Source: Cyrtodaria siliqua
Taxonomy: Eukaryota; Mollusca; Bivalvia; Adapedonta; Hiatellidae
Direction of reading: 5' to 3'
DNA: 64,000 nt
Assembly (NCBI GenBank): GCA_037043455.1
Contig: JAWPHD010000231.1
Span: 248,001-312,000 of the forward strand
Shown here: positions 13,171 to 61,009 of the stretch, in pieces
How the letters are laid out: every line of letters starts with the position of its first letter
Position numbering within the stretch: position 1 is the first letter of the stretch
The notes under the pieces: model-generated
Told to the model about the DNA's origin: nothing
Database searches by the model: none
What the model saw: only the letters and a program-made list of their open reading frames with translations
Position numbers and translations under genes: made by a program

Positions 13171-13325
13171 CGTCATGGTGTTTCGTTTTTATGATTGGAG
13201 TTCTGGCCTATTGAATATTTACCCAGAAAGATGTTGTTCATGCTATTTCTCCATGATGGATTTTTACCAAACTTTCTCAGAAGCATCAGTATGAAGTGTT
13301 GATGCACATATTGTCGTGAGGGTAC
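13171..13325 (+). repeat. right-flank unit of the ~165-bp repeat
   Basis: After the 82-bp array the full-length layout returns: tgaatatttacccag, gctatttctccat, tttttaccaaactttctcag, agaagc, gaagtgttgatgcacata. This shows that the 82-bp array lies inside a tract of the longer repeat. Confidence 0.75.
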
Positions 13326-26360: not shown

Positions 26361-28545
26361 AATAGGGTACCGGTATCAGGTTGTAGGGTACCAGTATCAG
26401 TATGTAGGGTACCAGTATCTGAATGAAGGTACCAGTATTAGTATGTAGGGTACCAGTATCAGTATGTAGGGTACCAGTGTCAAAATGTAGGTACCAGTAT
26501 CAGGTTGTAGGGTAACAGTATCGGGATGTAGGGTACCAGTATTAGTATGTAGGGTAGCATTGTCGGGATGTAGGATACCAGTATCAGGTTGGTGGGTACC
26601 AGTATCAGTATGTAGGGTACCGGTATCTGGATGTAGGGTACCAGTTACGAGTATTTGGATGAGAGTACCAGTATCAGTATGTATGGTAACAGTGTCCGGA
26701 TGTAGGATACCATTATCATGTTGTAGGGTAACAGTATTAGTATGTATGATAACAGTGTCCGGATGTAAGGTACCGGTATCATGTTGTAGAGTATCAGTAT
26801 CAGGATGTAGGGTAACAGTATCAGTAAGTAGGGTACCAGTTACGAGTATCTGCATGAAGAGTACCAGTATCATGTTGTAGGATATCAGTATCAGTATGTA
26901 GGGTACCAATGTCAGGATGTAGGGTACCAGTATCAGGTTGCAAGGTATCGGTATCAGGATGTAGGGTACCAGTATCAGGATGTAAGTACCAGTATCAGGA
27001 TGTAGAGTACCAGTAATAGCATGTAGAGTAACAGTATCATGATGTAGGGTACCAGTATCAGGACGTAAGTACCAGTATCAGGATGTAGAGTACCAGTATC
27101 AGGATGTAGAGTATCAGTATCAGGATGAAGATTACCAGTGTCTGGACGTAGGCTACCAGTATCAGGATGTAGGGTACGAGTTTCAGTTTATAGGGTACCG
27201 GTATCTGGATGTAGGGTATCGGTATCGGTATGTAGGATATCAGGATTTTGGTTACTTGTATCTGAATGTAGGGTACCAGTAACAGGATGTAGGGTATCAG
27301 TATCAGGATGTAAGTACCAGTATCAGAATGTAGAGTACCAGTATCTGGATGTAGAGTACCAGTATCAGGATGTAGAGTACCAGTATCTGAATGTAGGGTA
27401 CCAGTATCAGGATGTAGGGTACCAGTATCAGGATGTAGAGTACCAGTATCAAGATGTAGGGTACCAATATCAGGATGTAAGTACCAGTATCAGGATGTAG
27501 AGTACCAGTATCAGGATGTAAGTACCAGTATCAGAATGTAGGGTACCAGTATCAGGATGTAGAGTACCAGTATCAGGATGTAGAGTACCAGTATCAGGAT
27601 GTAAGTACCAGTATCAGAATGTAGGATACCAGTATCAGGATGTAGGGTATCAGTATCAGGATGTAGGGTATCAGTATCAGAATGTAGAGTACCAGTATCA
27701 GGTTGTAGAGTACCAGTATCAGGATGTAGAGTACCAGTATCTGAATGTAGGGTACCAGTATCAGGATGTAGGGTATCAGTATCAGGATGTAGGGTACCAA
27801 TATCAGGATGTAAGTACCAGTATCAGGATGTAGAGTACCAGTATCAGGATGTAGGGTACCAGTATCAGGATGTAGGGTATCAGTATCAGGATGTAGGGTA
27901 CCAATATCTGGATGTAGGGTATCGATATCGGTATCTAGGATATCAGGATTTTGCGTATCAGTATCTGAATGTAGGGTACCATTATCTGGATGTAGGGTAT
28001 CGGTATCGGTATGTAGGATATCAGGATTTTGGTTACTTGTATCTGAATGTAGGGTACCACTATCAGGATGTAGGGTACCAGTATCAGGATGTAGGGTACC
28101 AGTATCAGGATGTAAGTACCAGTATCAGAATGTAGAGTACCAGTATCAGGATGTAGAGTACCAGTATCTGGATGTAGGGTACCAGTATCTGGATTGTAGG
28201 GTACCATTATAAGGAGGTAGGGTACCAGTTTCAGTATGTAGGGTACCAATATCTGGATGTAGAGTATCGGTATCGGTATCTAGGATATCAGGATTTTGAG
28301 TATCAGTATCTGAATGTAGGGTACCAGTGTCACGATGTAATGTACCAGTATTATAATATAGGGGTACCTGTTTCAGGATGTAGGGGTACCCGATGTAGAC
28401 TATGTAGGTCACACATGTCAGGATGTAGGGATATCATTATCGGTATGTAGTGTACCAGCATCAGGATTTTGGGTACCAGTAACTGGATGTAGACTATGTA
28501 GGTCACAAATTTCAAGATATATGGTTACCATTATCAGGATACCTA
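26361..28545 (+). repeat. 21-bp minisatellite array (ggtaccagtatcaggatgtag)
   Basis: About one hundred units of 20-22 bp, of which ggtaccagtatcaggatgta is the core. Many include the GGTACC hexamer. Variants alternate cagtatcagga, cagtatctgaa and cggtatcggta. A longer composite block with atatcaggattttg recurs near 27237, 27947, 28018 and 28286. Because 21 is divisible by three, frames stay open for long runs on both strands and give repeat peptides (VPVSGCR-like forward; GTLHPDT-like or YILILVP-like reverse). These are not supported as proteins. The array fades at 28400-28545. Confidence 0.95.
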
Positions 28546-32728: not shown

Positions 32729-32990
32729 AATGAGTTTCGGGTACTTATTTATACTGTCCTGTTTTCGTTGTGGTTTGGTGTATCCTAGAACCTGGTTTAT
32801 ACGCACAGCGGCCTTTGTGCCACTGATTGTCATCACTTCTGTGTTTGTGGTGTGCATACTTTCTTTTTATCTTCTCTATTTTTCTTTTCCTTTTGATTGT
32901 GTTGAATACGTGTTTTTGGTTGACTGTGTTCTGTGAATGCTACTTTGCCTGTTAGACGTTAATATTTTCTTTATAATTCTTACATGTACA
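32729..32990 (+). mobile_element. family P retroelement, 3' region fragment
   Basis: Shares with other copies the order: tttatactgtcctgtttt, ggtttggtgtatcctagaac, cggcctttgtgccactgat, then a tgttttggttgactgtgt block and gaatgctactttgcctgtt. It lacks coding similarity and ends near the usual 3' terminus. Confidence 0.75.
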
Positions 32991-33139: not shown

Positions 33140-33735
33140 AACAAACTTCTTTCATACTATCTTTGTTAAACTTGTTAAAAGGTTTATTAAAATGGTTATG
33201 ACCCTATCATTTTGAAACGCACTGCATGGTGGACCCAGTTACAGTTCACCACTATGCTTTCCCCTTTACTTGTGCGATGGCCGGACAGGCTGTGGACCCT
33301 ATGAAGACGTATACCTAAAGCCCAAAAGGACGGTGACGTTTGATGTTTGTCTGCAGTCTTGTCTTGTCGTGTCCTCAATAGTTTATTCTCTTGTTGCTCT
33401 GGCTTCTGAAAAGTCATTGAGTACCTTCATTGTGGCTAACTAGGCTATTGTTTTTTTGTATTTATATATATACACGAGCATCTTTGTGTTTTACTTATAT
33501 TGCCTATTAATGCTGCCTTGTTGGTTAGAGAATAGTTCATGGCGGGGATTTCCTTATTTGCATTGTCTCGTTGTATTGGGTTGACGGTAGGGTAAGTGCA
33601 CCCTAGAACATGGTTTAAACCCCCAGCGACCTTTTTTGCCACTGACCGTTCCAAGGGGGTAGCCTTATTGCCAACCATTTAGTGTTTGTGATGTCTTATT
33701 TTTCTTTTGTTGTTCTTTGTTTCTGTGTGTTTTGT
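33140..33735 (+). mobile_element. family P retroelement, C-terminal and 3' region
   Basis: Begins with a broken form of the coding end (ggttatgaccctatcatttt; acagttcaccactatgcttt). It continues through ccggacaggctgtggaccct, gtcttgtcgtgtcctcaata, cattgagtaccttcattgtg, tgctgccttgttggttagag, catggcggggatttccttat and ccgttccaagggggtagcct. It stops just before the next copy starts, so the two lie nearly head to tail. Confidence 0.8.
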
Positions 33736-33964
33736 ATATGCGACATATATGCGACAAGGACTATCACAACCTGACTTCTATGGTGATGTGATTTATAAAC
33801 TTCGTAAGATTCTAGGTCATGATCACTTTCATACTATCTTTGTTAAACTTGTTAAAAAGTTTATCAAAAGAGGTTATGACCCTATCATTTTGCAACGTAC
33901 TGCATGCTTGGTGGTGGACCCTTTTACAGTTCGCCACTATGCTTTCCTCTTTATTGTACGATGA
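33707..33964 (+). CDS. family P retroelement, C-terminal coding end (partial)
   Basis: A frame of 85 codons whose residues 16-82 read MRQGLSQPDFYGDVIYKLRK, ILGHDHFHTIFVKLVKKFIK, RGYDPIILQRTACLVVDPFT and VRHYAFLF. This is the conserved tail of the same reverse transcriptase family as 31370-31650 (a Q.GI..PEFYGD..Y..RK segment, then a G(Y/F)....(R/M)..AC.VV.P.TV...AFLF segment). The first ~15 residues are hydrophobic and probably not part of the element. No catalytic domain is included: the copy is 5' truncated. It is the best preserved coding piece of the family in the window. Confidence 0.7.
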   Translation: MLFFVSVCFVYATYMRQGLSQPDFYGDVIYKLRKILGHDHFHTIFVKLVKKFIKRGYDPIILQRTACLVVDPFTVRHYAFLFIVR

Positions 33965-34575
33965 CCGGACAGGCTGTGGACCCTATGATGACGCCTACCT
34001 AAAGCCATTTGGGACGGTGGCGTTTGATGTTTGTCCATGATCTTTCTTGTCGTGCCCTTAATGGTTTTTTCTCTTACTGCTCTGGCTTCTGCAAAGTCAT
34101 TGAGTACCTTCATTGTGGCTTTCTAGGCTATTGTTTTTTTGTATTATATTTACACGAGCATATTTGTGTTTTACTTATATTGCCTGTTGATGCTGCCTTG
34201 TTGGTTAGAGATTAGATCATGGCGGGGATTTCTTTATTTACACTGTCCTGTTTTAATGGGATGACAGTAGGGTAAGTGTGAGGTTTGGTGCACCCTAGAA
34301 CCGGTTTAAACTCCAGTTGCCTACTTTGCCACTGATCGTTCCAAGGCGGTAGCCCTATTGTCAACCCTTTTTGTGTTTGTGATGTCGTTTGCATTTATTA
34401 TTGCTTTTGCCTTCTTGTTTGTCTGTTTGCGTGTTTGTTTCTGTGTTTTGTGGTTTACTGTCCTCCTTGAATGCTACTTTCCCTGTCCGATCTTTTTATA
34501 TTTCTTGTGGTTGACTGTCGTCATTGAATGCTACTTTTCCTGTTCGATTTTTTTATATCTATATTTATGTGGGAT
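33745..34575 (+). mobile_element. family P retroelement, longest 3' copy, with duplicated terminus
   Basis: Contains the coding tail (33753-33964), then the full 3' region with the landmarks listed for the copy at 33140, ending at the ttgaatgctactttccctgt block. The last 57 bp are present twice in tandem (34450-34506 and 34507-34563), each with gaatgctacttt, cctgtccga or cctgttcga, then ttttatat. Later frames (34009-34215, 34358-34591) are translations of the 3' region and not conserved. Confidence 0.85.
34450..34563 (+). repeat. 57-bp tandem duplication of a family P 3' terminus
   Basis: Two units start with gtggttt-actg or gtggttgactg at 34450 and 34507. They share ttgaatgctact, a cctgt-cga core and ttttatat, with about ten differences. 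Confidence 0.85.
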
Positions 34576-34751: not shown

Positions 34752-34965
34752 GTAGTTGTGTAGTGGTTAGAGTGTATGACCTTCAATCAGGAGGTCGTGG
34801 GTTCCAAGGCGGTAGCCCTATTGTCAACCCTTTATGTGTTTGTGACGTCGTATACCTTTATTTCTTATTAACATTGCCATTCATGTTTGTCGTTTTCCGT
34901 GTTTTGTTTGGTTTACTGTGTTCTGGGAAAGCTGCATTTCCTGTTCGACTTTTATACTTATTTCG
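34752..34965 (+). mobile_element. SINE-like chimera: tRNA-like head joined to family P tail
   Basis: 34752-34806 resembles a tRNA: A box TGTGTAGTGG (34757-34766), anticodon-arm-like gaccttcaatcaggaggtc, B box-like GGGTTCCAA (34799-34807). At the B box the sequence passes without a gap into family P 3' sequence (gttccaaggcggtagcccta...), ending gctgcatttcctgttcgact. GTTCCAAGG occurs at the same point in ordinary family P copies (for example 34338-34346), so the join sits in a 9-base stretch common to both parts. The result has a pol III-like promoter and a retroelement 3' end, the architecture of a SINE. No target duplication is seen. Confidence 0.7.
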
Positions 34966-36234: not shown

Positions 36235-36760
36235 TTAGAAATTAATATCGCCAGCCAGCATGTTTTATCTCATTCAAAGTCATCTCCAATATTTAGCCAC
36301 ACCTTACCAACCGAATATGTCAAATGGCAAATATAAAGGTAATTTTAACTTTATTAAGAATACAAAGAATGTTTATTGGTATAAAAAGAGACAAAACAAA
36401 CATTCATAGCAGCACTCTCCGTTTTATGCGGATCATTTGTTCTTGTATTGTTAACCGAGCTTATTTGTAAGACAGTGAACAATACATAAATGAACACATT
36501 GTTTTGCAACTCGACTATCTGGTCCGGAAACATCTCATCTGAACACGTATGCTTTCTCCATGTGGATATTTAAGTTTCTGATTAGAAGAACGCTTAAGTT
36601 CTGCACATTCCTTTTAACGTCTTAATGTTAGTGTCGCTGATCTGATTCATATGATATTGACTGATGTCAATTGAAGATCATTGTAATGATTTGACCTAGA
36701 GATTAAATCTTTTAGTGATATTGACATTATACTGTCAAGGTAATATTAAGATATTGCAAA
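36235..36760. other. no gene supported; left flank of the satellite
   Basis: AT-rich and unassigned. No sign of a gene. Confidence 0.45.
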
Positions 36761-39700
36761 AATAAAAGTAGATACAAATGTCAAGTAGGAAATGTAGAAC
36801 TAAAAGTAGATACCAATGTCGAGTAGAGGAAATGTAGAACAAGAAGTAGATACACATGTCGGGTAGGAAATGTAGAACTAATAGTAGATACAAATGTCGA
36901 GTAGGACATGTAGAACTAAAAGTAGATACAAATGTCGAGTAGGAAATGTAGAACTAAAAATAGATACAAATGTAGAGTAGGGAATGTAGAACTAAAAGTA
37001 GATACAAATGTCGAGTAGGACATATAGAACTAAAAGTAGATAAAATGTCGAGTAGGAAATGTAGAGCCAAAAGTAGACACAAATGTCGAGTAGGTAATGT
37101 AGAACTAAAAGTAGATACAAATGTCGAGTAGGAAATGTAGAACTAAAGTAGACACAAATGTCGAGTAGGAAATGTAGAACTAAAAGTAGATACCAATGTC
37201 GAGTAGGAAATGTAGAACTAAAAGTAGATACAAATATCGAGTAGGAGATGTAGAATTAAAAATAGATACAAATGTAGTGTGGGAAATGTGCAACTAAAAG
37301 TAGACACAAATGTCGAGTAGGAAATGTAGAACTAAAAGTAGATACCAATGTCGAGTAGGAAATGTAGAACAAAAAACAGATACACTTGTCGAGTAGGAAA
37401 TGTAGAAATTAAAGTAGATATAAATCTGGAGTAGGAAATGTAGAACTAAAAACAGACACAAATGACGAGTAAAAAATGTAGAACTAAAGTAGATACAAAT
37501 GTCGAGTAGGAAATGTAGAACTAAAAACAGACACAAATAACGAGTAAAAAATGTAGAACTAAAAGCAGATACAAATGTCGAGTAGGAAATGTAGAACTAA
37601 AAGTTGACACAAATTTAGTGTAGAAAATGTAGAACTAAAAGTAGAAACAATTGTCGAGTAGGAAACGTAGAACTAAAAAGTAGATAGAAATGCCGAGTAG
37701 GACATTTAGAACTAAAGTAGATACAAATGTCGGGTAGGAAATGTAGAACTAAAAGTAAACCCAGATGTCGAGTAGGAAATGTAGAACTAAAGTAGATACA
37801 AAACGTCGGGTAGGAAATGTAGAACTAAAAGTAAACTCAGATGTCGAGTAGGAAATGTAGAACTAAAGTAGACACAAATGTCGAGAAGGAAATGTAGAAC
37901 TAAAAGTAGACACAAATGTCGAGAAGGAAATGTAGAACTAAAAGTAGACACAAATGTCGAGTAGGAAATGTAGAACTAAAGTAGATACACACGTCGAGCA
38001 GGAAATGTAGAACTAAAAGTAGACACAAATGTTGAGAAGGAAATGTAGAACTAAAAGTAGACACAAATGTCGAGTAGGAAATGTAGAACTAAAGTAGATA
38101 CACACGTCGAGCAGGAAATGTAGAACTAAAAGTAGATACAAATTTCGAATAAGAAATGTAGCACTAAAAGTTGACACAAAATTCGAGTAGAAAATGTAGA
38201 ACTAAAAGTAGAAACAATTGTCGAATAGGAAACCTAGAACTAAAAAGTAGATGCAAATGCCGAGTAGGACATTTAGAACTAAAGTAGATACAAATGTCGG
38301 GTAGGAACTGCAGAACTAAAAGTAAAGCCAGATGTCGAGTAGGAAATGTAGAACTAAAGTAGACACAAATGTCGAGTAGGAAATGTGGAACTAAAAGTAG
38401 ACACAAATGTCGAGTAGGTAATGTAGAACCAAAGGAGACACAAATGTCGAGTAGGAAATGTAGAACTAAAAGTAGACACAAATGTCGAGTAGGACATGTA
38501 GAGCTAAAGTAGATACAAATGTCGAGTAGGAAATGTAGAACTAAAGTAGACACACATGTCGAGTAGAAAATGTAGAGCCAAAAGTAGACACAAATGTCGA
38601 GTAGATAATATAGAACTAAAAGTAGATACAAATGTCGAGTAGGAAATGTAGAACTAAAAGTAGATACAAATGTCGAGTAGGAAATGTAGAACTAAAAACA
38701 GATACAAATGTCGAGTAGGAAATGTAGAACTAAAAGTAGATACACATGTCGAGTAGGAAATGTAGAACTAAAGTAGATACACACGTCGAGCAGGAAATGT
38801 AGAACTAAAAGTAGATACAAATTTCGAATAAGAAATGTAGAACTAACAGTTGACACAAATGTCGAGTAGGAAATGCAGAACTAAAAGTAGACACAAATGT
38901 CGAGTAGGAAATGTAGAACTAAAGTAGATACAAATGTCGAGTAGGAAATGTAGAATAAGAAGTAGACACAAATGTCGAGTAGGAGATGTAGAACTAAAAG
39001 TTGACACAAATGTCGAGTAGGACATGTAGAGCTAAAGTAGATACAAATGTCGAGTAGAAAATGTAGAGCCAAAAGTAGACACAAATGTCGAGTAGATAAT
39101 ATAGAACTAAAAGTAGATACAAATGTCGAGTAGGAAATGTAGAACTAAAAGTAGATTCAAATGTCGAGTAGGAAATGTAGAACTAAAAACAGATACAAAT
39201 GTCGAGTAGGAAATGTAGAACTAAAAGTAGACACAAATGTCGAGTAGGAAATGTAGAACTAAAGTAGACACAAATGTCGAGTAGAAAATGTAGAGCCAAA
39301 AGTAGACACAAATGTCGAGTAGATAATATAGAACTAAAAGTAGATACAAATGTCGAGTAGGAAATGTAGAACTAAAAGTAGATACAAATGTCGAGTAGGA
39401 GATGTAGAACTAAAAGTAGTCACACATGTCGAGTAGGAAATGTAGAGCTAAAGTAGATACAAATGTCGAATAGGAAATGTAGAACTAAGAATAGACACAA
39501 ATATCGAGTAGGAAATGTAGAACTAAAGTAGACACAAATGTCGAGTAGAAAATGTAGAAATAAAAGTAGACAAAAATGTCAAGTAGGAAATGTAGAACTA
39601 AAAGTAGACACAAATGTCGAGCAGTAAATGTAGAACTAAAAGTAGATACAAATTTCGAGTAAGAAATGTAGAACTAAAAGCTGACACAAATGTCGAGTAG

Positions 39701-42700
39701 GATATGTAGATATAAAAGTAGACACAAATGTCGAGTAGGAAATGTAGAACTAAAGAAGATCCACTTGTCGAGTAGGAAATGTAGAATTAGAAGTAGACAC
39801 AGATGTCGAGTAGGAAATGTAGAACTAAAAGTACACACAGATGTCGAGTAGGAAATGTAGAACTGAAGTAGACACAAATTTCGAGTAGGAAATGTATAAC
39901 CAAACGTAGACAAAAATGTCGAGTAGGAAAGGTAGGACTAAAAGTAGACAAAATGTCGAGTAGGAAATGTAAAACCAAAAGTAGACACACATGTCGAGAT
40001 GAAAATGTAGAACTAAAAGTAGACACAAATGTCGAGTAGGAAATGTAGAACTAAAGTAGATATACATGTCTAGCAGGAAATGTAGAACTAAAAGAAGATT
40101 CAAATTTCGAGTAAGAAATGTAGAACTAAAAGTTGACACAAATGTCGAGTGGGAAATGTAGAAATAAAAGTAGACACAAATGTCGAGTAGGAATTGTTGA
40201 ACTAAAGTAGATACATATGTCGAGTATGAAATGTAGAACTAAAGTAGATACAAATGTCGAGTAGGAAATGTAGAACTAAAAGTAGACACAAATGTCGAGT
40301 AGGAAATGTAGAACTAAAAGTTGACACAAATATCGAGAAGGATATGTAGAGCTAAAGTAGATACAAATGTCGAGTAGGAAATGATGAACTAAAGTAGATA
40401 CAAATGTCGAGAGTAGGAAATGTAGAACTAAAAGTAGACACAGATGTCGAGTAGGAGATGTAGAACTAAAAGTAAACACAAACTATCGAGAAGGATATGT
40501 AGAGCTGAAGTAGATACAAATGTCGAGTAGGAAATGTAGAACTAAAAGTAGACACAAATGTCGAGTAGAAAATGTAGAGCCAAAAGTAGACACAAATGTC
40601 GAGTAGATAATATAGAACTAAACGTAGATACAAATGTCCAGTAGGAAATGTAGAACTAAAAGTAGATACAAATGTCGAGTAGGAAATGTAGAACTAAAAA
40701 CAGATACAAGTGTCGAGTAGGAAATGTAGAACTAAAAGTAGACACAAATGTCGAGTAGGAAATGTAGAACTGAAGTAGACACAAATGTCGAGTAGAAAAT
40801 GTAGAGCCAAAAGTAGACACAAATGTCGATTAGATAATATAGAACTAAAAGTAGATACAAATGTCGAGTAGGAATTGTTGAACTAATGTAGATACATATG
40901 TCGAGTAGGAAATGTAGAACTAAAGTAGATACAAATGTCGAGTAGGAAATGTAGAACTAAAAGTAGACACAAAAGTCGAGTAGGAAATATAGAACTAAAA
41001 GTTGACACAAATATCGAGAAGGATATGTAGAGCTAAAGTAGATACAAATGTCGAGTAGGAAATGAAGAACTAAAGTAGATATACATGTCGAGCAGGAAAT
41101 GTAGAACTAAAAGTAGATACAAATTTCGAGTAAGAAATGTAGAACTAAAAGTTTACACAAATGTCGGGTAGGAAATGTAGAAATAAAACTAGACACAAAT
41201 GTCGAGTAGGAAATGTAGAACTAAAGTAGATACATATGTCGAGTAGGAAATGTAGAATTAGAAGTAGACACAAATGTCGAGTAGGAAATGTAGAACTAAA
41301 AGCAGACACACATGTCGAGTAGGAAATGTAGAACTAAAAGTAGACGCAAATGTCGAGTAGGAAATGTACAACTAAAGTAGATACAAATATAGAGTAGAAA
41401 ATGTAGAACTAAAGGTAGACACAAATATCGAGTAGGAAATGTAGAACTAAAGTAGATAGAAATATAGAGCAGGAAATGTAGAACTAAAAGTAGACTCAAA
41501 TGTCGAGTAGGAAATGTAGAACTAAAAGATGACACAAATGTCGCGTATGACATGTAGAGCTAAAGTAGATACAAATGTCGAGTAGGAAATGTAGAACAAA
41601 AAGTAGATACAAATGTCGAGTAGGAAATGTAGAACAAAAAGTAGATACACTTGTCGAGTAGGAAATGTAGAACTTAAAGTAGATGCAAATGTCGAGTAGG
41701 AAATGTAGAACTAAAAACAGATACAAATGTCGAGTAGAAAATGTAGAACTAAAAGTAGACACAAATGTCAAGTAGGAAATGTAGAACTAAAAGTAGATAC
41801 AAATGTCGAGTAGGAGAAGTAGAACTGAAAACAGATACAAATGTCGAGTAGAAAATGTAAAACTAAAAGTAGACACAAATGTCGAGTAGGAAACGTTGAA
41901 CTAAAAAGCAGATACAAATGCCGAGTAGGAAATATAGAACTAAAGTAGATACAAATGTCGAGGAGGAAATGTAGAACTAAAAGTAAACACAGATGTCGAG
42001 TAGGAAATGTAGAACTAACGTAGATACAAATGTCGAGTAGGAAATGTAGAACTAGAAGTAGACACAAATGTCGAGTAGGAAATGTAGAACTAAAAAGCAG
42101 AAACAAATGCCGAGTAGGAAAAAAAGAACTAAAGTAGATACAAATGTCGAGGAGGAAATGTAGAACTAAAAGTAGACACAAATGTCGAGTAGGAAATGTA
42201 GAACTAAAAGCAGATACAAATGTCGAGTAGAAAATGTAAAACTAAAAGTAGACACAAATGTCGAGTAGGAAACGTTGAACTAAAAGCAGATACAAATGTC
42301 GAGTAGGAAATATAGAACTAAAGTAGATACAAATGTCGAGGAGGAAATGTAGAACTAAAAGTAAACACAGATGTCGAGTAGGAAATGTAGAACTAACGTA
42401 GATACAAATGTCGAGTAGGAAATGTAGAACTAGAAGTAGACACAAATGTCGAGTAGGAAATGTAGAACTTAAAGTATATACAAATGTCGAGTATGAAATG
42501 TAGAACTAAAAGTAGACAAAAATGTCAAGTAGTAAATGTAGAACCAAAAGTAGACACACATGTCGAGTAGGAAATGTAGAACAAAAGTAGATAGAAATAT
42601 AGAGTAGGAAATGTAAAACTAAAAGTAGACACAAATGTCGAGTAGGAAATGTAGAACTAAAGTAGATACAAATGTCGAGTAGGAAAGGTAGGACTAAAAG

Positions 42701-45700
42701 TAGACAAAATGTCGAGTAGGAAATGTAAAACCAAAAGTAGACACACATGTCGACATGAAAATGTAGAACTAAAAGTAGACACAAATGTCGAGTAGGAAAT
42801 GTAGAACTAAAGTAGACACAAATTTCGAGTAGGAAATGTAGAACCAAAAGTAGACAAAAATGTCGAGTAGGAAATGTAGAACTAAAAGTTGACACAAATG
42901 TCGCGTATGCCATGTAGAGCTAAAGTAGATACAAATGTCGAGTAGGAAATGTAGAACTAAAAGTAGACACAAATGTCGAGTATGAAATGTAGAACAAAAA
43001 GTAGATACAAATGTCGAGTAGGAAATGTAGAACAAAAAGTAGATACACTTGTCGAGTAGGAAATGTAGAACTTAAAGTAGATGCAAATGTCGAGTAGGAA
43101 ATGTAGAACTAAAAACAGATACAAATATCGAGTAGAAAATGTAGAACTAAAAGTAGACACAAATGTCGAGTAGGAAACGTTGAACTAAAAAGCAGATACA
43201 AATGCCGAGTAGGAAATATAGAACTAAAGTAGATACAAATGTCGAGGAGGAAATGTAGAACTAAAAGTAAACACAGATGTCGAGTAGGAAATGTAGAACT
43301 AACGTAGATACAAATGTCGAGTAGGAAATGTAGAACTAGAAGTAGACACAAATGTCGAGTAGGAAATGTAGAACTAAAAAGCAGAAACAAATGCCGAGTA
43401 GGAAATATAGAACTAAAGTAGATACAAATGTCGAGGAGGAAATGTAGAACTAAAAGTAGACACAAATGTCGAGTAGGAAATGTAGAACTAAAAGCAGATA
43501 CAAATTTCGAGTAGAAAATGTAAAAATAAAAGTAGACACAAATGTCGAGTAGGAAACGTTGAACTAAAAAGCAGATACAAATGCCGAGTAGGAAATATAG
43601 AACTAAAGTAGATACAAATGTCGAGGAGGAAATGTAGAACTAAAAGTAAACACAGATGTCGAGTAGGAAATGTAGAACTAACGTAGATACAAATGTCGAG
43701 TAGGAAATGTAAAACTAGAAGTAGACACAAATGTCGAGTAGGAAATGTAGAACTAAAAGTATATACAAATGTCGAGTATGAAATGTAGAACTAAAAGTAG
43801 ACAAAAATGTCTAGTAGTAAATGTAGAACCAAAAGTAGACACACATGTCGAGTAGGAAATGTAGAACTAAAGTAGATAGAAATATAGAGTAGGAAATGTA
43901 GAACTAAAAGTAGACACAAAAGTCGAGTAGGAAATATAGAACTAAAAGTTGACACAAATATCGAGAAGGATATGTAGAGCTAAAGTAGATACAAATGTCG
44001 AGTAGGAAATGATGAACTAAAGTAGATACAAATGTCGAGAGTAGGAAATGTAGAACTAAAAGTAGACACAGATGTCGAGTAGGAAATGTAGAACTAAAGT
44101 AGATACAAATGTCGTGTAGGAAATGTAGAACTAAAAGTAGACACAAAAGTCGAGTAGGAAATATAGAACTAAAAGTTGACACAAATATCGAGAAGGATAT
44201 GTAGAGCTAAAGTAGATACAAATGTCGAGTAGGAAATGATGAACTAAAGTAGATACAAATGTCGAGAGTAGGAAATGTAGAACTAAAAGTAGACACAGAT
44301 GTCGAGTAGGAGATGTAGAACTAAAAGTAAACACAAACTATCGAGAAGGATATGTAAAGCTGAAGTAGATACAAATGTCGAGTAGGAAATGTAGAACTAA
44401 AAGTAGACACAAATGTCGAGTAGGAAATGTAGAACTAAAAGTAGACACAAATGTCGAGTAGGAAATGTAGAACTAAAGTAGATACAAATGTCGAGTAGAA
44501 AATGTAGAACTAAAGGTAGACACAAATATCGAGTAGGAAATGTAGAACTAAAGTAGATAGAAATATAGAGTAGGAAATGTAGAACTAAAAGTAGACACAA
44601 ATGTCGAGTAGGAAATGTAGAACTAAAGTAGATATACATGTCGAGCAGGAAATGTAGAACTAAAAGAAGATACAAATTTCGAGTAAGAAATGTAGAACTT
44701 AAAGTTGACACAAATGTCGAGTGGGAAATGCAGAAATAAAAGTAGACACAAATGTCGAGTAGGAAATGTTGAACTAAAGTAGATACATATGTCGAGTAGG
44801 AAATGTAGAACTAAAAGTTGACACAAATATCGAGAAGGATATGTAGAGCTAAAGTAGATACAAATGTCGAGTAGGAAATGTTGAACTAAAGTAGATACAA
44901 ATGTCGAGTAGGAAATGTAGAACTAAAAGTAGACACAGATGTCGAGTAGGAGATGTAGAACTAAAAGTTGACACAAACTATCGAGAAGGATATGTAGAGC
45001 TGAAGTAGATACAAATGTCGAGTAGGAAATGTAGAACTAAAAGTAGACACAAATGTCGAGTAGGAAATGTAGAACTAAAGTAGTTACAAATGTCGAGTAG
45101 GAAAGGTAGGACTAAAAACAGACAAAATGTCGAGTAGGAAATGTAAATCCAAAAGTAGACACACATGTCGAGATGAAAATGTAGAACTAAAAGTAGACAC
45201 AAATGTCGAGTAGGAAATGTAGAACTAAAGTAGATATACATGTCGAGCAGGAAATGTAGAACTAAAAGTAGATACAAATTTCGAGTAAGAAATGTAGAAC
45301 TAAAAGTTGACACAAATGTCGGGTAGGAAATGTAGAAATAAAACTAGACACAAATGTCGAGTAGGAAATGTTGAACTAAAGTAGATACATATGTCGAGTA
45401 GGAAATGTAGAATTAGAAGTAGACACAAATGTCGAGTAGGAAATGTAGAACTAAAAGTAGACAAAATGTCAAGTAGGAAATGTAAAACCAAAAGCAGACA
45501 CACATGTCGAGTAGGAAATGTAGAACTAAAAGTAGACAAAAATGTCGAGTAGGAAATGTACAACTAAAGTAGATACAAATATAGAGTAGAAAATGTAGAA
45601 CTTAAAGTAGACACAAATGTCGAGTAGGAAATGTAGAACTAAAAGATGACACAAATGTCGCGTATGACATGTAGAGCTAAAGTAGATACAAATGTCGAGT

Positions 45701-48700
45701 AGGAAATGTAGAACAAAAAGTAGATACACTTGTCGAGTAGGAAATGTAGAACTTAAAGTAGATGCAAATGTCGAGTAGGAAATGTAGAACTAAATACAGA
45801 TACAAATGTCGAGTAGAAAATGTAGAACTAAAAGTAGACACAAATGTCAAGTAGGAAATGTAGAACTAAAAGTAGATACAAATGTCGAGTAGGAGAAGTA
45901 GAACTGAAAACAGATACAAATGTCGAGTAGAAAATGTAAAACTAAAAGTAGACACAAATGTCGAGTAGGAAACGTTGAACTAAAAAGCAGATACAAATGC
46001 CGAGTAGGAAATATAGAACTAAAGTAGATACAAATGTCGAGGAGGATATGTAGAACTAAAAGTAAACACAGATGTCGAGTAGGAAATGTAGAACTAACGT
46101 AGATACAAATGTCGAGTAGGAAATGTAGAACTAGAAGTAGACACAAATGTCGAGTAGGAAATGTAGAACTAAAAAGCAGAAACAAATGCCGAGTAGGAAA
46201 TATAGAACTAAAGTAGATACAAATGTCGAGGAGGAAATGTAGAACTAAAAGTAGACACAAATGTCGAGTAGGAAATGTAGAACTAAAAGCAGATACAAAT
46301 GTCGAGTAGAAAATGTAAAACTAAAAGTAGACACAAATGTCGAGTAGGAAACGTTGAACTAAAAAGCAGATACAAATGTCGAGTAGGAAATATAGAACTA
46401 AAGTAGATACAAATGTCGAGCAGGAAATGTGGAACTAAAAGTAAACACAGATGTCGAGTAGGAAATGTAGAACTAAAAGTATATACAAATGTCGATTATG
46501 AAATGTAGAACTAAAAGTAGACAAAAATGTCTAGTAGTAAATGTAGAACCAAAAGTAGACACACATGTCGAGTAGGAAATGTAGAACTAAAGTAGATAGA
46601 AATATAGAGTAGGAAATGTAGAACTAAAAGTAGACACAAATGTCGAGTAGGAAATGTAGAACTAAAGTAGATACAAATGTCGAGTAGGAAAGGTAGGACT
46701 AAAAGTAGACAAAATGTCGAGTAGGAAATGTAAAACCAAAAGTAGACACACATGTCGACATGAAAATGTAGAACTAAAAGTAGACACAAATGTCGAGTAG
46801 GAAATGTAGAACTAAAGTAGACACAAATTTCAAGTAGGAAATGTAGAACCAAAAGTAGACAAAAATGTCGAGTAGGAAATGTAGAACTAAAAGTAGACAC
46901 AAATGTCGCGTATGACATGTAGAGCTAAAGTAGATACAAATGTCGAGTAGGAAATGTAGAACTAAAAGTAGACACAAATGTCGAGTATGAAATGTAGAAC
47001 AAAAAGTAGATACAAATGTCGAGTAGGAAATGTAGAACAAAAAGTAGATACACTTGTCGAGTAGGAAATGTAGAACTTAAAGTAGATGCAAATGTCGAGT
47101 AGGAAATGTAGAACTAAAAACAGATACAAATATCGAGTAGGAAATGTAGAACTAAAAGTAGATACAAATGTCGAGTAGGAGATGTAGAACTGAAAACAGA
47201 TACAAATGTCGAGTAGAAAATGTAAAACTAAAAGTAGACACAAATGTCGAGTAGGAAACGTTGAACTAAAAAGCAGAAACAAATGCCGAGTAGAAAATAT
47301 AGAACTAAAGTAGATACAAATGTCGAGGAGGAAATGTAGAACTAAAAGCAGATACAAATGTCGAGTAGAAAATGTAAAACTAAAAGTAGACACAAATGTC
47401 GAGTAGGAAACGTTGAACTAAAAAGCAGATACAAATGCCGAGTAGGAAATATAGAACTAAATTAGATACAAATGTCGAGGAGGAAATGTAGAACTAAAAG
47501 TAAACACAGATGTCGAGTAGGAAATGTAGAACTAACGTAGATACAAATGTCGAGTAGGAAATGTAGAACTAGAAGTAGACACAAATGTCGAGTAGGAAAT
47601 GTAGAACTAAAAGTATATACAAATGTCGAGTATGAAATTTAGAACTAAAAAGTAGACACAAATGTCGAGTAGGAAATGTAGAACCAAAAGTAGACACACA
47701 TGTCGAGTAGGAAATGTAGAACTAAAAGTAGACACAAATGTCGAGTAAGAAATGTAGAACTAAAGTAGATACAAATGTCGAGTAGGAAATGTAGAACTAA
47801 AAGTAGACAAAATGTCGAGTAGGAAATGTAAAACCAAAAGCAGACACAAATGTCGAGTAGGAAATGTAGAACTAAAAGTAGATACAAATGTCGAGTAGGA
47901 AATGTAGAACTAAAAGTATATACAAATGTCGAGTATGAAATGTAGAACTAAAAGTAGACAAAAATGTCTATTAGTAAATGTAGAACCAAAAGTAGACACA
48001 CATGTCGAGTAGGAAATGTAGAACTAAAAGTAGACACAAATGTCGAGTAAGAAATGTAGAAGTAAAGTAGATACAAATGTCGAGTAGGAAATGTAGAACT
48101 AAAAGTAGACAAAATGTCGAGTAGGAAATGTAAAACCAAAAGCAGACACAAATGTCGAGTAGGAAATGTGGAACTAAAAGTAGACACAAATGTCGAGTAG
48201 GAAATGTAGAACTAAAGTAGATACACATATAGAGTAGGAAATGTAGAACTAAAGGTAGACACAAATATCGAGTAGGAAATGTAGAACTAAAGTAGATAGA
48301 AATGTAGAGTAGGAAATGTAGAACTAAAAGTTGACACAAATGTTGAGTAGATAATATAGAACTAAAAGTAGACACAAATGTCGAGTAGGAATGTAGAACT
48401 AAAATTAGACACATATGTCGAGTAAGAAATGTAGAACTAAAGTAGATACAAATATAGAGTAGGAAATGTAGAACTAAAGGTAGACACAAATGTCGAGTAA
48501 GAATGTAGAACTAAAGTAGATACCATATAGAGTAGGACATTTGAACTAAAATTAGACGCATATGTCGAGTAGGAAATGTAGAACTAAAGTAGATACAAAT
48601 ATAGAGTAGGAAATGTAGAACTAAAGGTAGACACAAATATCGAGTAGGAAATGTAGAACTAAAGTAGATAGAAATATAGAGTAGGAAATGTAGAACTAAT

Positions 48701-51700
48701 AGTAGACACAAATGTCGAGTAGGAGATGTAGAGCTAAAGTCGATACAAATGTCGAGTAGGAAATGTAGAACTAAAAGTAAACACAAATGTCGAGTAGGAA
48801 TGTAGAACTAAAGTAGATACAAATATAGAGTAGGACATGTAAAACTAAAATTAGACACTTATTTCGAGTAGGAAATGTAGAACCAAAAGTAGACACAAAT
48901 ATAGAGTAGGAAATATGGAACTAAAAGTAAACACAAATGTCGAGAAGGAAATGTAGAACTAAAAGTAGACACAAATGTCGAGTAGGAAATGTAGAACTAA
49001 AGTAGATACAAATGTCGAGTAGGAAAGGTAGGACTAAAAGTAGACAAAATGTCGAGTAGGAAATGTAAAACCAAAAGTAGACACACATGTCGACATGAAA
49101 ATGTAGAACTAAAAGTAGACACAAATGTCGAGTAGGAAATGTAGAACTAAAGTAGACACAAATTTCGAGTAGGAAATGTAGAACCAAAAGTAGACAAAAA
49201 TGTCGAGTAGGAAATGTAGAACTAAAAGTAGACACAAATGTTGCGTATGACATGTAGAGCTAAACTAGATACAAATGTCGAGTAGGAAATGTAGAACTAA
49301 AAGTAGACACAAATGTCGAGTATGAAATGTAGAACAAAAAGTAGATACAAATGTCGAGTAGGAAATGAAGAACAAAAAGTAGATACACTTGTCGAGTAGG
49401 AAATGTAGAACTTAAAGTAGATGCAAATGTCGAGTAGGAAATGTAGAACTAAAAACAGATACAAATATCGAGTAGGAAATGTAGAACTAAAAGTAGATAC
49501 AAATGTCGAGTAGGAGATGTAGAACTGAAAACAGATACAAATGTCGAGTAGAAAATGTAAAACTAAAAGTAGACACAAATGTCGAGTAGGAAACGTTGAA
49601 CTAAAAAGCAGATACAAATGCCGAGTAGGAAATATAGAACTAAAGTAGATACAAATGTCGAGGAGGAAATGTAGAACTAAAAGTAAACACAGATGTCGAG
49701 TAGGAAATGTAGAAATAACGTAGATACAAATGTCGAGTAGGAAATGTAGAACTAGAAGTAGACACAAATGTCGAGTAGGAAATGTAGAACTAAAAGTATG
49801 TACAAATGTCGAGTATGAAATTTAGAACTAAAAGTAGACACAAATGTCGAGTAGGAAATGTAGAACCAAAAGTAGACACACATGTCGAGTAGGAAATGTA
49901 GAACTAAAAGTAGACACAAATGTCGAGTAAGAAATGTAGAACTAAAGTAGATACAAATGTCGAGTAGGAAATGTAGAACTAAAAGTAGACAAAATGTCGA
50001 GTAGGAAATGTAAAACCAAAAGCAGACACAAATGTCGAGTAGGAAATGTGGAACTAAAAGTAGACACAAATGTCGAGTAGGAAATGTAGAACTAAAGTAG
50101 ATACACATATAGAGTAGGAAATGTAGAACTAAAGTAGATAGAAATGTAGAGTAGGAAATGTAGAACTAAAAGTTGACACAAATGTCGAGTAGATAATATA
50201 GAACTAAAAGTAGACACAAATGTCGAGTAGGAATGTAGAACTAAAGTAGATACAAATATAGAGTAGGACATGTAGAACTAAAATTAGACACATATGTCGA
50301 GTAAGAAATGTAGAACTAAATTAGATACAAATATAGAATAGGAAATGTAGAACTAAAGGTAGACACAAATGTCGAGTAGGAATGTAGAACTAAAGTAGAT
50401 ACCAATATAGAGTAGGACATGTAGAACTAAAATTAGACACATATGTCGAGTAGGAAATGTAGAACTAAAGTAGATATAAATATAGAGTAGGAAATGTAGA
50501 ACTAAAGGTAGACACAAATATCGAGTAGGAAATGTAGAACTAAAGTAGATAGAAATATAGAGTAGGAAATGTAGAACTAATAGTAGACACAAATGTCGAG
50601 TAGGAGATGTAGAGCTAAAGTCGATACAAATGTCGAGTAGGAAATGTAGAACTAAAAGTAAACACAAATGTCGAGTAGGAATGTAGAACTAAAGTAGATA
50701 CAAATATAGAGTAGGACATGTAAAACTAAAATTAGACACATATGTCGAGTAGGAATTGTAGAACCAAAAGTAGACACAAATATAGAGCAGGAAATATGGA
50801 ACTAAAAGTAAACACAAATGTCGAGAAGGAAATGTAGAACTGAAAGTTGACTCAAATGTCGAGTAGGAAATGTAGAACTAAAATTAGACACAAATGTCGA
50901 GTAGGAAATGTAGAACTAAAAGTTGACACAAATGTCGAGTAGGACATGTATAGTTAAAGTAGATACAAATGTCGAGTAGGAAATGTAGAACTAAAAGTAG
51001 ACACAAATGTGGAATATGAAATGTAGAACTAAAGTAGATACAAATATAGAGTAGGAAATGTAGAACTAAAAGTAGACACAAATGTCGAGTAGGAAATGTA
51101 GAACCAAAAGTAGACACAAATATCGAGTACGAAATGTGGAACTAAAAGTAGACACTAATGTCGAGTAGGAAATGTAGAACTAAAGTAGATACACATATAG
51201 AGTAGGAAATGTAGAACTAAAGGTAGACACAAATATCGAGTAGGAAATGTAGAACTAAAGTAGATAGAAATGTAGAGTAGGAAATGTAGAACTAAAAGTT
51301 GACACAAATGTCGAGTAGATAATATAGAACTAAAAGTAGACACAAATGTCGAGTAGGAATGTAGAACTAAAGTAGATACAAATATAGAGTAGGACATGTA
51401 GAACTAAAATTAGACACATATGTCGAGTAAGAAATGTAGAACTAAAGTAGATACAAATATAGAGTAGGAAATGTAGAACTAAAGGTAGACACAAATGTCG
51501 AGTAGGAATGTAGAACTAAAGTAGATACCAATATAGAGTAGGACATGTAGAACTAAAATTAGACACATATGTCGAGTAGGAAATGTAGAACTAAAGTAGA
51601 TACAAATATAGAGTAGGAAATGTAGAACTAAAGGTAGACACAAATATCGAGTAGGAAATGTAGAACTAAAGTAGATAGAAATATAGAGTAGGAAATGTTG

Positions 51701-52289
51701 AACTAATAGTAGACACAAATGTCGAGTAGGAGATGTAGAGCTAAAGTCGATACAAATGTCGAGTAGAAAATGTAGAACTAAAAGTAAACACAAATGTCGA
51801 GTAGGAATGTAGAACTAAAGTAGATACAAATATAGAGTAGGACATGTAAAACTAAAATTAGACACATATGTCGAGTAGGAAATGTAGAACCAAAAGTAGA
51901 CACAAATATAGAGTAGGAAATATGGAACTAAAAGTAAACACAAATGTCGAGAAGGAAATGTAGAACTGAAAGTTGACTCAAATGTCGAGTAGGAAATGTA
52001 GAACTAAAATTAGACACAAATGTCGAGTAGGAAATGTAGAACTAAAAGTTGACACAAATGTCGAGTAGGACATGTATAGTTAAAGTAGATACAAATGTCG
52101 AGTAGGAAATGTAGAACTAAAAGTAGACACAAATGTCGAATATGAAATGTAGAACTAAAGTAGATACAAATATAGAGTAGGAAATGTAGAACTAAAAGTA
52201 GACACAAATGTCGAGTAGGAAATGTAGAACCAAAAGTAGACACAAATATCGAGTACGAAATGTGGAACTAAAAGTAGACACTAATGTCA
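36761..52289 (-). repeat. 15.5-kb satellite array, 37/38-bp monomer
   Basis: About 410 copies of a monomer that reads on the plus strand gtcgagtaggaaatgtagaa then ctaaaagtagacacaaat (38 bp). A 37-bp form has one A less (ctaaagtag). Common variants are gatacaaat for gacacaaat, aaaacagata for aaagtagata, and tatagagtagg for gtcgagtagg. The last grows frequent after about 48.2 kb. The two lengths often alternate, so a 75-bp dimer keeps one reverse frame open and yields a 25-residue repeat (LLLVLHFLLDICIYFSS then TFPTRHLC). The many reverse frames of 60-172 codons here arise this way; they have no independent start signals or non-repeat ends. Larger blocks are duplicated (see findings). Strand is given as the orientation matching family P termini. 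Confidence 0.97.
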
Positions 52290-53164: not shown

Positions 53165-53295
53165 AATGAATTAAACATATAAAAGCAGATATAAAAGTCG
53201 AACAGGAAAGGTGGCAGTCCGCACCAGACAACGAAAAACACGGAATGAAATAAAACAACAGCTACAAGGATAAACGAAATGCAAGGTATATAATA
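53165..53295 (-). mobile_element. family P retroelement, 3' terminal fragment
   Basis: On the reverse strand ccacctttcctgttcgactt is followed by ttatatctgcttttatat. This matches the 3' terminus of other copies and is the fragment most like the satellite monomer by position-to-position comparison. The preceding gtgtttttcgttgtctgg block fits the family's preterminal tgttttggttgactg block. Confidence 0.65.
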
Positions 53296-53689: not shown

Positions 53690-54400
53690 CGATATATAAG
53701 AAGATAATTATAAAAGTTGAATAGACAAATGTAGCATTCAAAGACCACATTCAACCAAAAACACTCATAGAAACAAACAACACTTACAAATTTGATTGAA
53801 AGGCAAATTGTATGACATTACAAGCATAAAAAGAGTTGACAATTGGGCTACCGCTTGGAACGGTCAGAGGCAAAATAAGGCCGCTGGGTTTTTTAACCAG
53901 ATTATTTCACGCCTACAATATTGCCATCCCAGTAAAAGGGGAGAGTGTAAATAAAGATATCCCCGCCAGGTTATATTCTCTAACAAACACGGCAGAATTA
54001 AATTAATAGGCAATATAATTATAAAACATATATTATCTTGAATACTTGAATATAAAACATAATGGCCTAGAAAGTCACACAGCAAGTACTCAATGACTTG
54101 GCAGAAGCCAGAGAAACAAGAGAACAAACCATTAAGGGTACGACAAGACAACATGTAAGACAAACATCAAACGCTAGGGTAACCGTACTCTGAGGATTTA
54201 GGTAGACGCCATCACAGGTTACACATTCTGTCCAATCACTGGACACTCAAAGATTAAAGAATAGTGACGAATTGTAAATGGGTCATCCACTAAACATGCA
54301 GTTCGTTGTAAAATGATAATGATAGTGTCATAACATCTTTTGATAAACCTTTTAACACGTTTAATAAGTTTCATAAATAACCTTTGCCACCTCTATAATT
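53690..54400 (-). mobile_element. family P retroelement, C-terminal and 3' region
   Basis: The reverse strand encodes KRVKRFIKRCYDTI, then LQRTACLVDDPFTIRHYS (about 54350-54240). It continues through the 3' landmarks (cttgtcgtacccttaatggt, ccaagtcattgagtacttgc, ggcggggatatctttattta, ccgttccaagcggtagccc) to ctacatttgtctattcaact near 53735. The frame 54163-53864 is a translation of the 3' region, not a separate gene. Confidence 0.8.
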
Positions 54401-54509: not shown

Positions 54510-54555
54510 AAAAGACGTATTCCTTGAATGCTGCATTTCCTATTCGTCGAGTGTA
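54510..54555 (+). mobile_element. family P 3' terminus, isolated
   Basis: ccttgaatgctgcatttcct, then attcgtcgagtgtatctact and ttta. It contains both the family's gaatgctgc lead-in and a segment (tgtatctacttttaa) identical to the satellite monomer over 13 or more bases. Confidence 0.6.
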
Positions 54556-54559
54556 TCTA

Positions 54560-55005
54560 CTTTTAAAGTCTAAGATTGAAAAAAAAGAACATGTCCACTA
54601 CGCGCTAAATACCCTTATTATACACATTCCGAATTTAACACGATATACTGGTAAATATTTATTTGTCTCTGAATAGGGTCGTGTTTCATTTCAAATTGAA
54701 CGTTATTCAGAGCGGTGAACATGTTTGCCCCTGGCCATAATAGGGTGTGTGGCTGGGTCAAAGATCTCGTTTTATTACGAGCGCGGAGATTTGCGATGGC
54801 CATCTAGTTCTAATTAGCTTGTCGTTTGTTAACCATTTATAACTTGTAATCTCTCCTCTGCTAACTGACTATTTACTTTAAACTATATCGTCAGCCTACC
54901 TATCAAACTTCGTTTTGTTTTTCAAACGGCGTTTTCTTTAGGACCTATTTACAGCCTATTGCATTTAGGGGGAACATAATTTGTATAGGTAACTGTAAAT
55001 CATGT
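54560..55005. other. no gene supported
   Basis: AT-rich and unassigned. The 61-codon reverse frame has no recognisable feature. Confidence 0.45.
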
Positions 55006-55009
55006 TAGA

Positions 55010-55312
55010 TTAGATCATGGCGGGGATTTCTTTATTTACACTGTCCTGTTTTAATGGGATGACAGTAGGGTAAGTGTAAGGTTTGGTGCACCTTAGAACC
55101 GGTTTAAACCCCCAGTAACCTACTTTGCCACTGACCGTTCCAAGGCGGTAGCCTTATTGTCAACCCTTTTGTGTTCGTGATGTCGTTTGCATTTATTATT
55201 ACTTTTGCCTCGCTGTTTGTCTGTTTGCATGTTTCTTTATGTGTTTTGTTGTTGACTGTCTTCCTTGAATGCTACTTTCCCTGTCCGATCTTTTTATATT
55301 TCGTTATACAGT
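55010..55312 (+). mobile_element. family P retroelement, 3' region fragment
   Basis: Starts at agatcatggcggggatttct and closely follows the copy at 34210-34500 to cctgtccgatctttttatat. No coding part remains. Confidence 0.8.
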
Positions 55313-56299: not shown

Positions 56300-56984
56300 T
56301 CGATAATGTAGCATGTAAATGAAAAAGAAATTAAAAATTTAAGTGTGTATATTTTTAAAGTATTTGAAATGAGGAAAACGCTAATGAATTGATTTGATGT
56401 AATTGTAATTCCATGTTTCATTTTCTCATTTTCTCATTTTCTCCTTCTCAATTGTAATGTTTTGTGTTATTTTAATATTGTAATATTTTATTTTTACATA
56501 GTCATGTATATTTGTGTGTGGTGGTTTTGTCACGCTTGAAAATGCAAATAGAGCTTCTTTTTTTATTGTGTTTGAAACGTATGTGTATGTGCTTATATGT
56601 CCATGACATGGATACGATTAAGTATAATACATCAACCATAACATTGATGTATTTATATATGTTTAGTCGCCTTCTTCGTGAAATGTTAAATAAAAGTACT
56701 GACGTGTTCATGTGTTTGCTTCTATTTTTGTTTTCTGTTTGTGTTCTTCTGCATCTGATATTTGTTAATACATATATGTATGGATCTTGCTACGTCTGTT
56801 AAAATGTATATGTATAATATTGTATGATCACATGGGCCTATGGCTTACTGATTTTGAAATAAAGTGCTTCTTCTTCTATTTATTTTAAGCAGTAAATAAA
56901 CCAGCTTTCCATGCATTTTAAACGATCATTTAGCGTTGGGAAATAGATCCCTAATTGTAATTAGTCTTCCTAATCTTCGCATTC
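56300..56984. other. no gene; possible retroelement 3' end at 56820-56880
   Basis: AT-rich sequence ends in acatgggcctatggcttact followed by a tgaaataaagtgcttcttct tail. This looks like the polyadenylation-signal end of a LINE or other retroelement with a ctt tail. The frames at 56502-56802 on both strands have no domain. Confidence 0.4.
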
Positions 56985-57310
56985 AATGGTTTATTCTCTT
57001 GTTGCTCTGGAATCTGCCAAGTCATTGAATACCTCTTTTGTGGCTTTCTAGACTATTTTTTATATATATACAGGAGCATCTTTGTGTTTTACTTATATTG
57101 CCTATTAATGCTGCCTTGTTAGTTAGAGAATAGTTCATGGTGGGTATTTCTTTATTTACACTGTCCCGTTTTATTGTGTTGACAGTAGGATAGTTGTGAG
57201 GTTTGGTGCACCCTAGAACCTAGTTTAAACCCCCAGCGGCCTTCTTGGCCACTGACCGTTCCAAGGCGTTGACTGTCGTCCTTGAATGCTGCTTTTCCAG
57301 TTCATTATTT
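56985..57310 (+). mobile_element. family P retroelement, 3' region fragment
   Basis: Runs from caatggtttattctcttgtt through aatgctgccttgttagttag, tttggtgcaccctagaacct and ccactgaccgttccaaggcg. It then jumps directly to ttgactgtcgtccttgaatg and a terminus, so about 90 bp of the usual 3' region is deleted. Confidence 0.8.
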
Positions 57311-57425
57311 TACCATTTTATTAAACTATATTGTTGGTGCAATATTATAAAAAGTTAGTAATATGTAAAAACAATTTTCTTTGAACTATTCTAACAATTA
57401 ATATTAATGATTGAATATGGTAATC
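57311..57425. mobile_element. fragment of the TTAA-flanked MITE family
   Basis: Shares tattgttggtgcaatatta, atatgtaaaaacaattttct and gaactattctaacaattaa with the interior of 15734-16109 (for example tattattgatgcaatatga). The termini are missing. Confidence 0.55.
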
Positions 57426-57904: not shown

Positions 57905-58480
57905 TAGCATGTCAAAACAATTGCCCTGTTGACGACAGTCAACAATAAACACAAAGAGAAACAAAGAACAACTTTAAGATGAATAAAAGGCAATATAAGA
58001 TATTTCAAACACAAAATTGTTGACAATAGGGCTGCCACTTTGGAACGGTCAGTGGCACAAATGGCCGCTGGGGTCTAAACCAGATTCTAGGGTGCACCGA
58101 CCCTCATTATTACCCTATTGTCATCCCAATAAACAGGACAGTGTAAATAAAGATATCCGCGTCAGGTTATAATCTCTAACAAACAAAGCAGCATTAGTAG
58201 GCAATATAAGTAAAACACATAAATGAGCATGTATGTATAATATAAAAAACAAAGCCTAGAAAGCCACAAAGTAAGTAGTCAATGACTTGGCTGAAGTCAA
58301 AGCAACAAGATAACAAACCATTAAAGGTACGACAAGACAAGATTAAAGACAAACATCAAACGCTACTATAACGATTTGGGTAGACGTCATTATAGGGTTC
58401 ACTATTTGTCCGGTCATCGTACAATCAAGGAGGAAAGCATAGTGGCGAACTGTAAATGGGTCAACCACTTGGAGAAAAAA
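57905..58480 (-). mobile_element. family P retroelement, 3' region
   Basis: The reverse strand begins with VVDPFTVRHYAFLLDCTMTG (about 58470-58400). It continues with the family landmarks (cttgtcgtacctttaatggt, ccaagtcattgactacttac, tgctgctttgtttgttagag, cggtgcaccctagaatctgg, ccgttccaaagtggcagccc) to the terminus near 57915. It is continuous with the coding fragment at 58490-58800 except for an internal deletion. Confidence 0.8.
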
Positions 58481-60868: not shown

Positions 60869-61009
60869 TTAATCTGGTAATGTTAATTCACTTTTGAAGC
60901 TTTCGATGGTCTGTTGGTTCACAATATTGTCACTGAGTTTATTCCAATCTATCACTGTTCTTGGGAAGAAAGAGTATATGAAATTATCACTATTTGTCTG
61001 TATTAATTA
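60869..61009 (-). pseudogene. LINE ORF2 C-terminal tail beyond a premature stop
   Basis: After TAA (61009-61007) the same frame continues LIQTNSDNFIYSFFPRTVID, WNKLSDNIVNQQTIESFKSE and LTLPD, then TAA at 60871-60869. The FFPRT..DWN.L segment is the usual C-terminal end of ORF2 in this LINE group, so the stop at 61007 is most likely a nonsense change and 60869 the ancestral terminus. In-frame spacing is 46 codons. Confidence 0.8.

Follow-up and report, generated by a model that had tools for sequence, protein, structure and literature searches.

Where does a tandem tract of ~15.5 kb with a unit of only 38 bp come from? The window analysed here, a stretch of 64,000 nucleotides from the bivalve Cyrtodaria siliqua, poses this question at positions 36763-52288, where TRF reported an array with a period of 38 and 411.5 copies. 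On the minus strand the repeated unit has the sequence GTTCTACATTTCCTACTCGACATTTGTRTCTACTTTTA. Wrap-around alignment on the same strand resolved 411 full units of ~38 bp and a 20-nt partial unit at 52288, together with a doubtful 3-nt remnant (TTT) at 36760-36762, left of the array. The preliminary description of this DNA had proposed that the end of a retroelement was amplified about 400 times. In the orientation of that element, here called family P, the 5' edge of the array (52269-52288) begins in the middle of a unit and without an adjoining P body. The 3' edge, at 36763, is in phase with P's own 3' end: the last unit ends ..ATCTACTTTTA, in the phase seen at P 3' ends of the older type. 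By eye, no target-site duplication was recognised at the array edges.

Two main unit types alternate across much of the array, one with G28 and T34 (n=192) and one with A28 in which T34 is deleted (n=101), and this alternation is consistent with the 75-bp dimer period obtained from TRF. Over the whole array, position 28 is occupied mostly by G (216/412), followed by A (189/412). The more P-like type, A28 with T34, accounts for 83 of 411 units array-wide and is clustered at the 3' edge: absent from the first 34 units, it makes up 17 of the last 34 and all of the last eight. Additionally, near-identical units form runs that reappear within the array at constant lags, the longest run comprising 21 units at a lag of 30. 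Changes per full unit amount to 2.55 in the first 20 units, 2.15 in the last 20 and 2.27 overall. Apparently more diverged edges (3.6 and 4.23 changes per unit) were an effect of the partial end units, and the full units at the edges are ordinary. Other repeats are present in the window as well. A second long tandem array, at 26363-28492, consists of ~102 copies of a 21-bp unit, TAGGGTACCAGTATCAGGATG, and each of its strands contains long open frames. At 12490-13176 an 82-bp unit is repeated 8.4 times with 99% matches, and diverged relatives of it are found from 11893; at 5653-6175 two opposite-strand ORFs with near-identical protein form an inverted repeat.

The window carries about eleven copies or fragments of family P, which have the 3' end in common and differ at their 5' ends. 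On the left side of the array, all on the plus strand, are a fragment with the 3' end (32769-32975), a fragment without it (33149-33735), a copy whose 57-bp 3' end is tandemly doubled (33826-34558) and another fragment with the 3' end (34801-34965). The P copy nearest the right edge of the array is a fragment at 53183-53289 (-) with the older-type 3' end ..TTCGACTTTTATATCTGCTTTTA. It is followed by a copy with a diverged 3' end at 53701-54367 (-) and by P6, a short P 3' end at 54523-54566 (+, edges approximate) which among the P ends of the window is closest to the array unit. P7, at 55007-55308 (+), has the 3' end of a younger subfamily; P8 lies at 56983-57312 (+), and a copy at 57931-58469 (-) lacks the terminal ~40 nt. 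The monomer-like fragments quoted in the preliminary description do occur where it had placed them. At 61007-63818 (-), two long ORFs read, by eye, as the reverse transcriptase and endonuclease of a LINE-type retroelement.

What kind of element is family P? It had been labelled Penelope-like, a label that the motifs recognised by eye fit and that Pfam does not back with a match. One copy (L012) contains an ORF with IPMGTNCAP..RYLDDI, reverse-transcriptase-like by eye, which ends ~210 nt before the 302-bp 3' segment used as query and has no endonuclease. Another copy (L010) contains an ORF with GVTGRSLKVRFREH, which is GIY-YIG-like, and then CEC, again by eye. The two motifs were found in these different copies and not together in one, and a Pfam search with the two ORFs returned no match at E <= 0.001. 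Among 7996 candidates scored from a protein database, 6796 were relatives; the best 120 of these 6796 are without a named function, and 17 of the best 120 contain Pfam PF26215. SECIS_1 was matched above the gathering cut-off within family P at 33977-34037 (+) of the window, and at the gathering score in eight of 20 further P loci with nine hits (L002, L007, L008, L009, L014, L018, L021 and L022), which suggests that this retroelement may encode a selenoprotein. Separately, Rfam gave a match of 57.8 bits at 321-434 (+) of locus L005, to RF00485, the editing signal of potassium channel RNA. A hammerhead ribozyme gave no Rfam gathering hit in positions 31500-64000 of the window and the 20 loci, a coverage outside which the full-length P 5' ends fall.

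Naiad elements possess a reverse transcriptase related to those of Penelope and telomerase, to which an N-terminal GIY-YIG is joined by CxC. Their members in clams code for selenoproteins with a SECIS, and they are not known to carry a canonical hammerhead. Such a combination, in an element with tens of thousands of copies, is characteristic of Naiad Penelope-like elements, and family P looks like an element of this type.

Family P is abundant in the 2.88-Gb assembly of 26,948 contigs to which the window belongs. A 41-mer from the P body had 32,001 matches with up to two mismatches and a 30-nt pattern of the older-type terminus had 22,776 with up to three, against none for the reversed-pattern control in either case. 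The element stops at ..TATCTRCTTTTA (TTTTA) in 30 of 30 excised terminus loci, with flanks that differ thereafter by eye; a younger subfamily, ending ..TCTTTTTATATTTC, is also present. For a sample picked by the body alone, we took L103 and 30 of the 100 listed places that match the body pattern (n=31). In 27 of these 31 copies the alignment ends within 9 nt of the P terminus. Two others end 13 and 24 nt short of it, and the second of these looks by eye like a complete end that carries an indel. The remaining two form a duplicated pair and break off 52 nt short of the terminus. The window's contig itself carries two near-identical P copies 14 kb apart, L118 (C231:5405-5725) and L119 (19626-19946). 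Both are broken at one common point and joined to an apparent inverted P fragment, and the pair is probably a segmental duplication.

Judged from the sequence, the array unit consists of the terminal 35 bp of the older P subfamily and 3 further bp (GTT). When the circular unit was compared with a 279-nt consensus of the P 3' end (50 copies), the best ungapped placement over all offsets, rotations and both strands was the last 38 nt, with 32/38 identical, on the predicted strand. The mean over 5000 dinucleotide shuffles was 20.9 (sd 1.08) and the maximum 26, so that the prediction of the preliminary description, that the consensus end of family P would match the monomer better than shuffled sequence, held. 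Most tests were done with the A28 unit, which differs from P's last 35 nt at four positions (15, 16, 22 and 26). Given that G is the majority base at position 28 of the array, the G28 type was re-tested as well, and it reached 31/38 against a shuffle maximum of 25 (n=2000).

The 30-mer that seeded the 50-copy consensus came from a window copy picked as monomer-like, and the consensus is conditioned on this choice. As a control for such bias, we rebuilt the consensus from the body-selected copies, after L118 and L119, which are without the end, had been dropped from the 31. The older copies (n=16) gave 29/38 at the exact terminus, a score equalled by 0 of 2000 shuffles. The younger copies (n=13) gave 24/38 (59/2000 shuffles) and all 29 pooled gave 25/38 (5/2000); the three consensuses place the unit at the terminus in one and the same register. 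Since the older copies match and the younger ones do so poorly, the unit comes from the older P subfamily. Of the eight P ends tested in the window, seven share one register, in which their best alignment with the doubled unit lies at the P terminus, and for six of the eight no more than 20 of 1000 dinucleotide shuffles reach the same score; for the ends near 53183 (-) and 54560 the number is 0 of 1000. P7 (from 55007; 134/1000 shuffles) and P8 (from 56983; 764/1000, in a different register) are not significant against the unit. For many of the 31 body-anchored copies taken singly the match is likewise not beyond chance in 500 shuffles, and only seven reach <=1/500; pooled, the 31 have a mean of 28.5, compared with a shuffle mean of 20.6 (sd 1.53) and a best shuffle of 29.5. 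A chance likeness of two AT-rich sequences would account for the non-significant single young copies and for the low score of the younger consensus, but with 32 identities against a shuffle maximum of 26, precisely at the terminus and on a single strand, and with older body-selected copies that no shuffle equalled, the unit is homologous to a mobile element beyond chance and the probability of mere coincidence is negligible.

Taken alone, this similarity would also speak for the opposite direction, in which a satellite that already existed gave family P its 3' end, or stray array units landed beside P copies. The distribution of the two sequence types argues against this. The P terminus has its 22,776 matches across the genome, and all of the 30 + 31 loci read either have P upstream or were drawn from P bodies. 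The core CCTACTCGACATTTGTNTCTAC, which holds all four array-specific bases, has 117 matches in the whole count for the genome, all on one strand, and 117 within the window, every one in the array; copies with the four bases and additional changes inside the core are missed by this search. Matches to a 58-nt dimer pattern (up to three mismatches) fall inside the array in 39 of 39 cases. With these core and dimer patterns, the array type was found at no second locus of the 2.88-Gb assembly. Given that P is everywhere and the array type at one place, the array comes from P, a genome-wide dispersed element, and not P from the array; the reverse is extremely improbable. The similar fragments around the array had been read beforehand as P ends and not as stray satellite units, and this reading is borne out: P ends are joined to P bodies in tens of thousands of places, and since a match to the array-specific core turned up at no other place, the monomer-like fragments are not array units gone astray.

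The preliminary description had spoken of a satellite derived from a Penelope-like 3' end. The origin stands, with 32/38 at the terminus; a genome-wide satellite family is not supported, with one locus found. Indeed, the tract is a long tandem array of a short unit, as a satellite is, and in the assembly it neither occurs at many loci nor takes up a major fraction of the genome. Within the limits of the assembly, the tract is a long minisatellite confined to a single locus and not a dispersed satellite. Could there be related arrays, members of one larger satellite family, that the assembly has lost or collapsed? Long tandem arrays are frequently lost from assemblies, and the present one is in 26,948 contigs. 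The edges of such arrays are expected to survive, however, and under the patterns used no remnant of even a few units was seen elsewhere in 2.88 Gb, which makes missing arrays very unlikely. A place where a P body runs directly into array units, which had also been proposed as a check, was not found: neither the first ~880 bp beyond the right edge nor the ~1.8 kb next to the left edge showed a P body. Such a junction copy is helpful, not required, for assigning an array to the class of transposon-derived tandem repeats.

A more serious alternative is that the element wrote the array itself. Canonical Penelope-like elements may carry an optional tail of 30-40 bp between two reverse-transcription starts (PMC11167929), and the available part of a second paper describes the tail likewise (PMC3846280). 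Repeated restarts of reverse transcription on a 38-nt tail, or the insertion of tails into old tails, followed later by recombination, might then have produced the array. The unit is indeed a terminus and of the size of a Penelope-like tail, and P ends are sometimes doubled, in several sizes. Tandem duplications of the 3' end span 57 bp in the window (34448-34558), 85 bp in L022 (~2949-3101, -), ~85 bp in L056 (306-483) and 12 bp at the 3' end of L042. The junction in L022 resembles an internal CATCTTTATAGTTG stretch, which suggests that microhomology may have been involved there. Routine dimers of the 38-bp tail were searched for with an exact gapped pattern, which would let diverged dimers escape; the one genome match proved on reading to be a mutated single copy.

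Against such an origin, the sole genome match to a P-type tail dimer is not a dimer. No second tail was present downstream in any of 50 exact-tail copies, where a loose filter had flagged 14 of the 50 and none was convincing by eye. None of the 31 body-anchored copies stops near -40, which gives no sign of an optional tail in P, and the array core is known from one locus only. A hint in favour comes from other P rows, of which 5 of 68 are without the last ~40 nt or more, in a listing that covers 68 of 113 rows and leaves out the exact-tail seed copies. On this evidence repeated writing by restarts or by tails into tails is unlikely. A stronger form of the idea, in which P's 3' terminal ~38 bp would be a self-duplicating tail and a telomerase-like reiteration would have written a non-telomeric array that recombination later homogenised, appears to us very improbable. 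That arrays are repeatedly written by the element itself is not supported.

We regard it as highly probable instead that, at a single locus, one inserted 3' end of the older P subfamily underwent local duplication and expanded into the array through slippage and unequal exchange. In a first step, target-primed reverse transcription would have placed at the site, 3' end first, a P copy heavily truncated on its 5' side, and this copy would have supplied one terminus. Slippage or a microhomology error could then have duplicated this terminus together with 3 bp. The motif CTACWTTT is found near both ends of the duplicated P tail and could have served as the microhomology, as we infer from its position; the extra GTT could be flanking DNA of the founding P copy, which is only a supposition. 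Finally, slippage and unequal exchange would have enlarged the array to 411 units, and during this enlargement the array-private bases A15, C16, A22 and G26 would have spread through it. The clustering of the A28/T34 type and the repeated blocks suggest that the founder lay close to the 3' edge and that slippage came next, along with unequal exchange that may have proceeded block-wise. After the initial insertion of P the element's own enzymes would be unnecessary, and no function is assigned to the array in this model. Some observations speak against it: the P copy that founded the array did not turn up, the array has no P body next to it, and four fixed differences separate the unit from the P consensus. 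Moreover, the units at the edges show no clear excess of divergence over inner ones, which means that the classical edge signature expected from unequal exchange is missing and that only the repeated blocks argue for this step.

Satellites that arise from untranslated regions of LINEs, LTRs or transposon ends have been described, in the available parts of two sources (PMC12628747; PMC7004042), and they resemble the array of C. siliqua in that a sub-segment of a mobile element became tandemised. Among molluscs, PcH-sat of the limpet Patella caerulea is a tandem repeat whose unit shares a long stretch with the Nin-SINE retroelement; according to the accessible portion of the report, the unit measures 179 bp and the repeat makes up ~10% of the genome, on several chromosomes (PMC11121367). 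The array described here differs from it in having a 38-bp unit and one locus found, and in that almost all of this unit is a retroelement 3' terminus. A satellite of Harttia catfish, HviSat02-2707, is said in the accessible text to be "connected to Penelope elements", has by its name a 2.7-kb unit, and is not stated there to derive from the terminus (PMC11955569). The optional Penelope-like tail (PMC11167929; PMC3846280, the latter in its available part) is, as here, a terminal piece of 30-40 bp, but it is described as a single extension and not as a tandem array. In the accessible main text of one review (PMC12628747) Penelope is not mentioned, whereas the tract studied here is the 3' end of a Penelope-like element. 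Our search of the open-licence literature found no tandem array derived from a Penelope-like 3' terminus, the nearest case being the Harttia satellite.

Tandem repeats from pieces of transposons are already known, and the array of C. siliqua is a well-resolved further case, which leaves the general view that such pieces seed tandem repeats unchanged. Given that the amplified piece has the size of a Penelope-like tail, the P terminus is worth examining for features that promote slippage. What the locus offers is an unusually clean record of the birth of a tandem repeat, in which the source element, the exact piece, the orientation, the phase and the single site are readable. It could therefore serve to test how transposon ends give rise to minisatellites, and how private mutations spread within an array.
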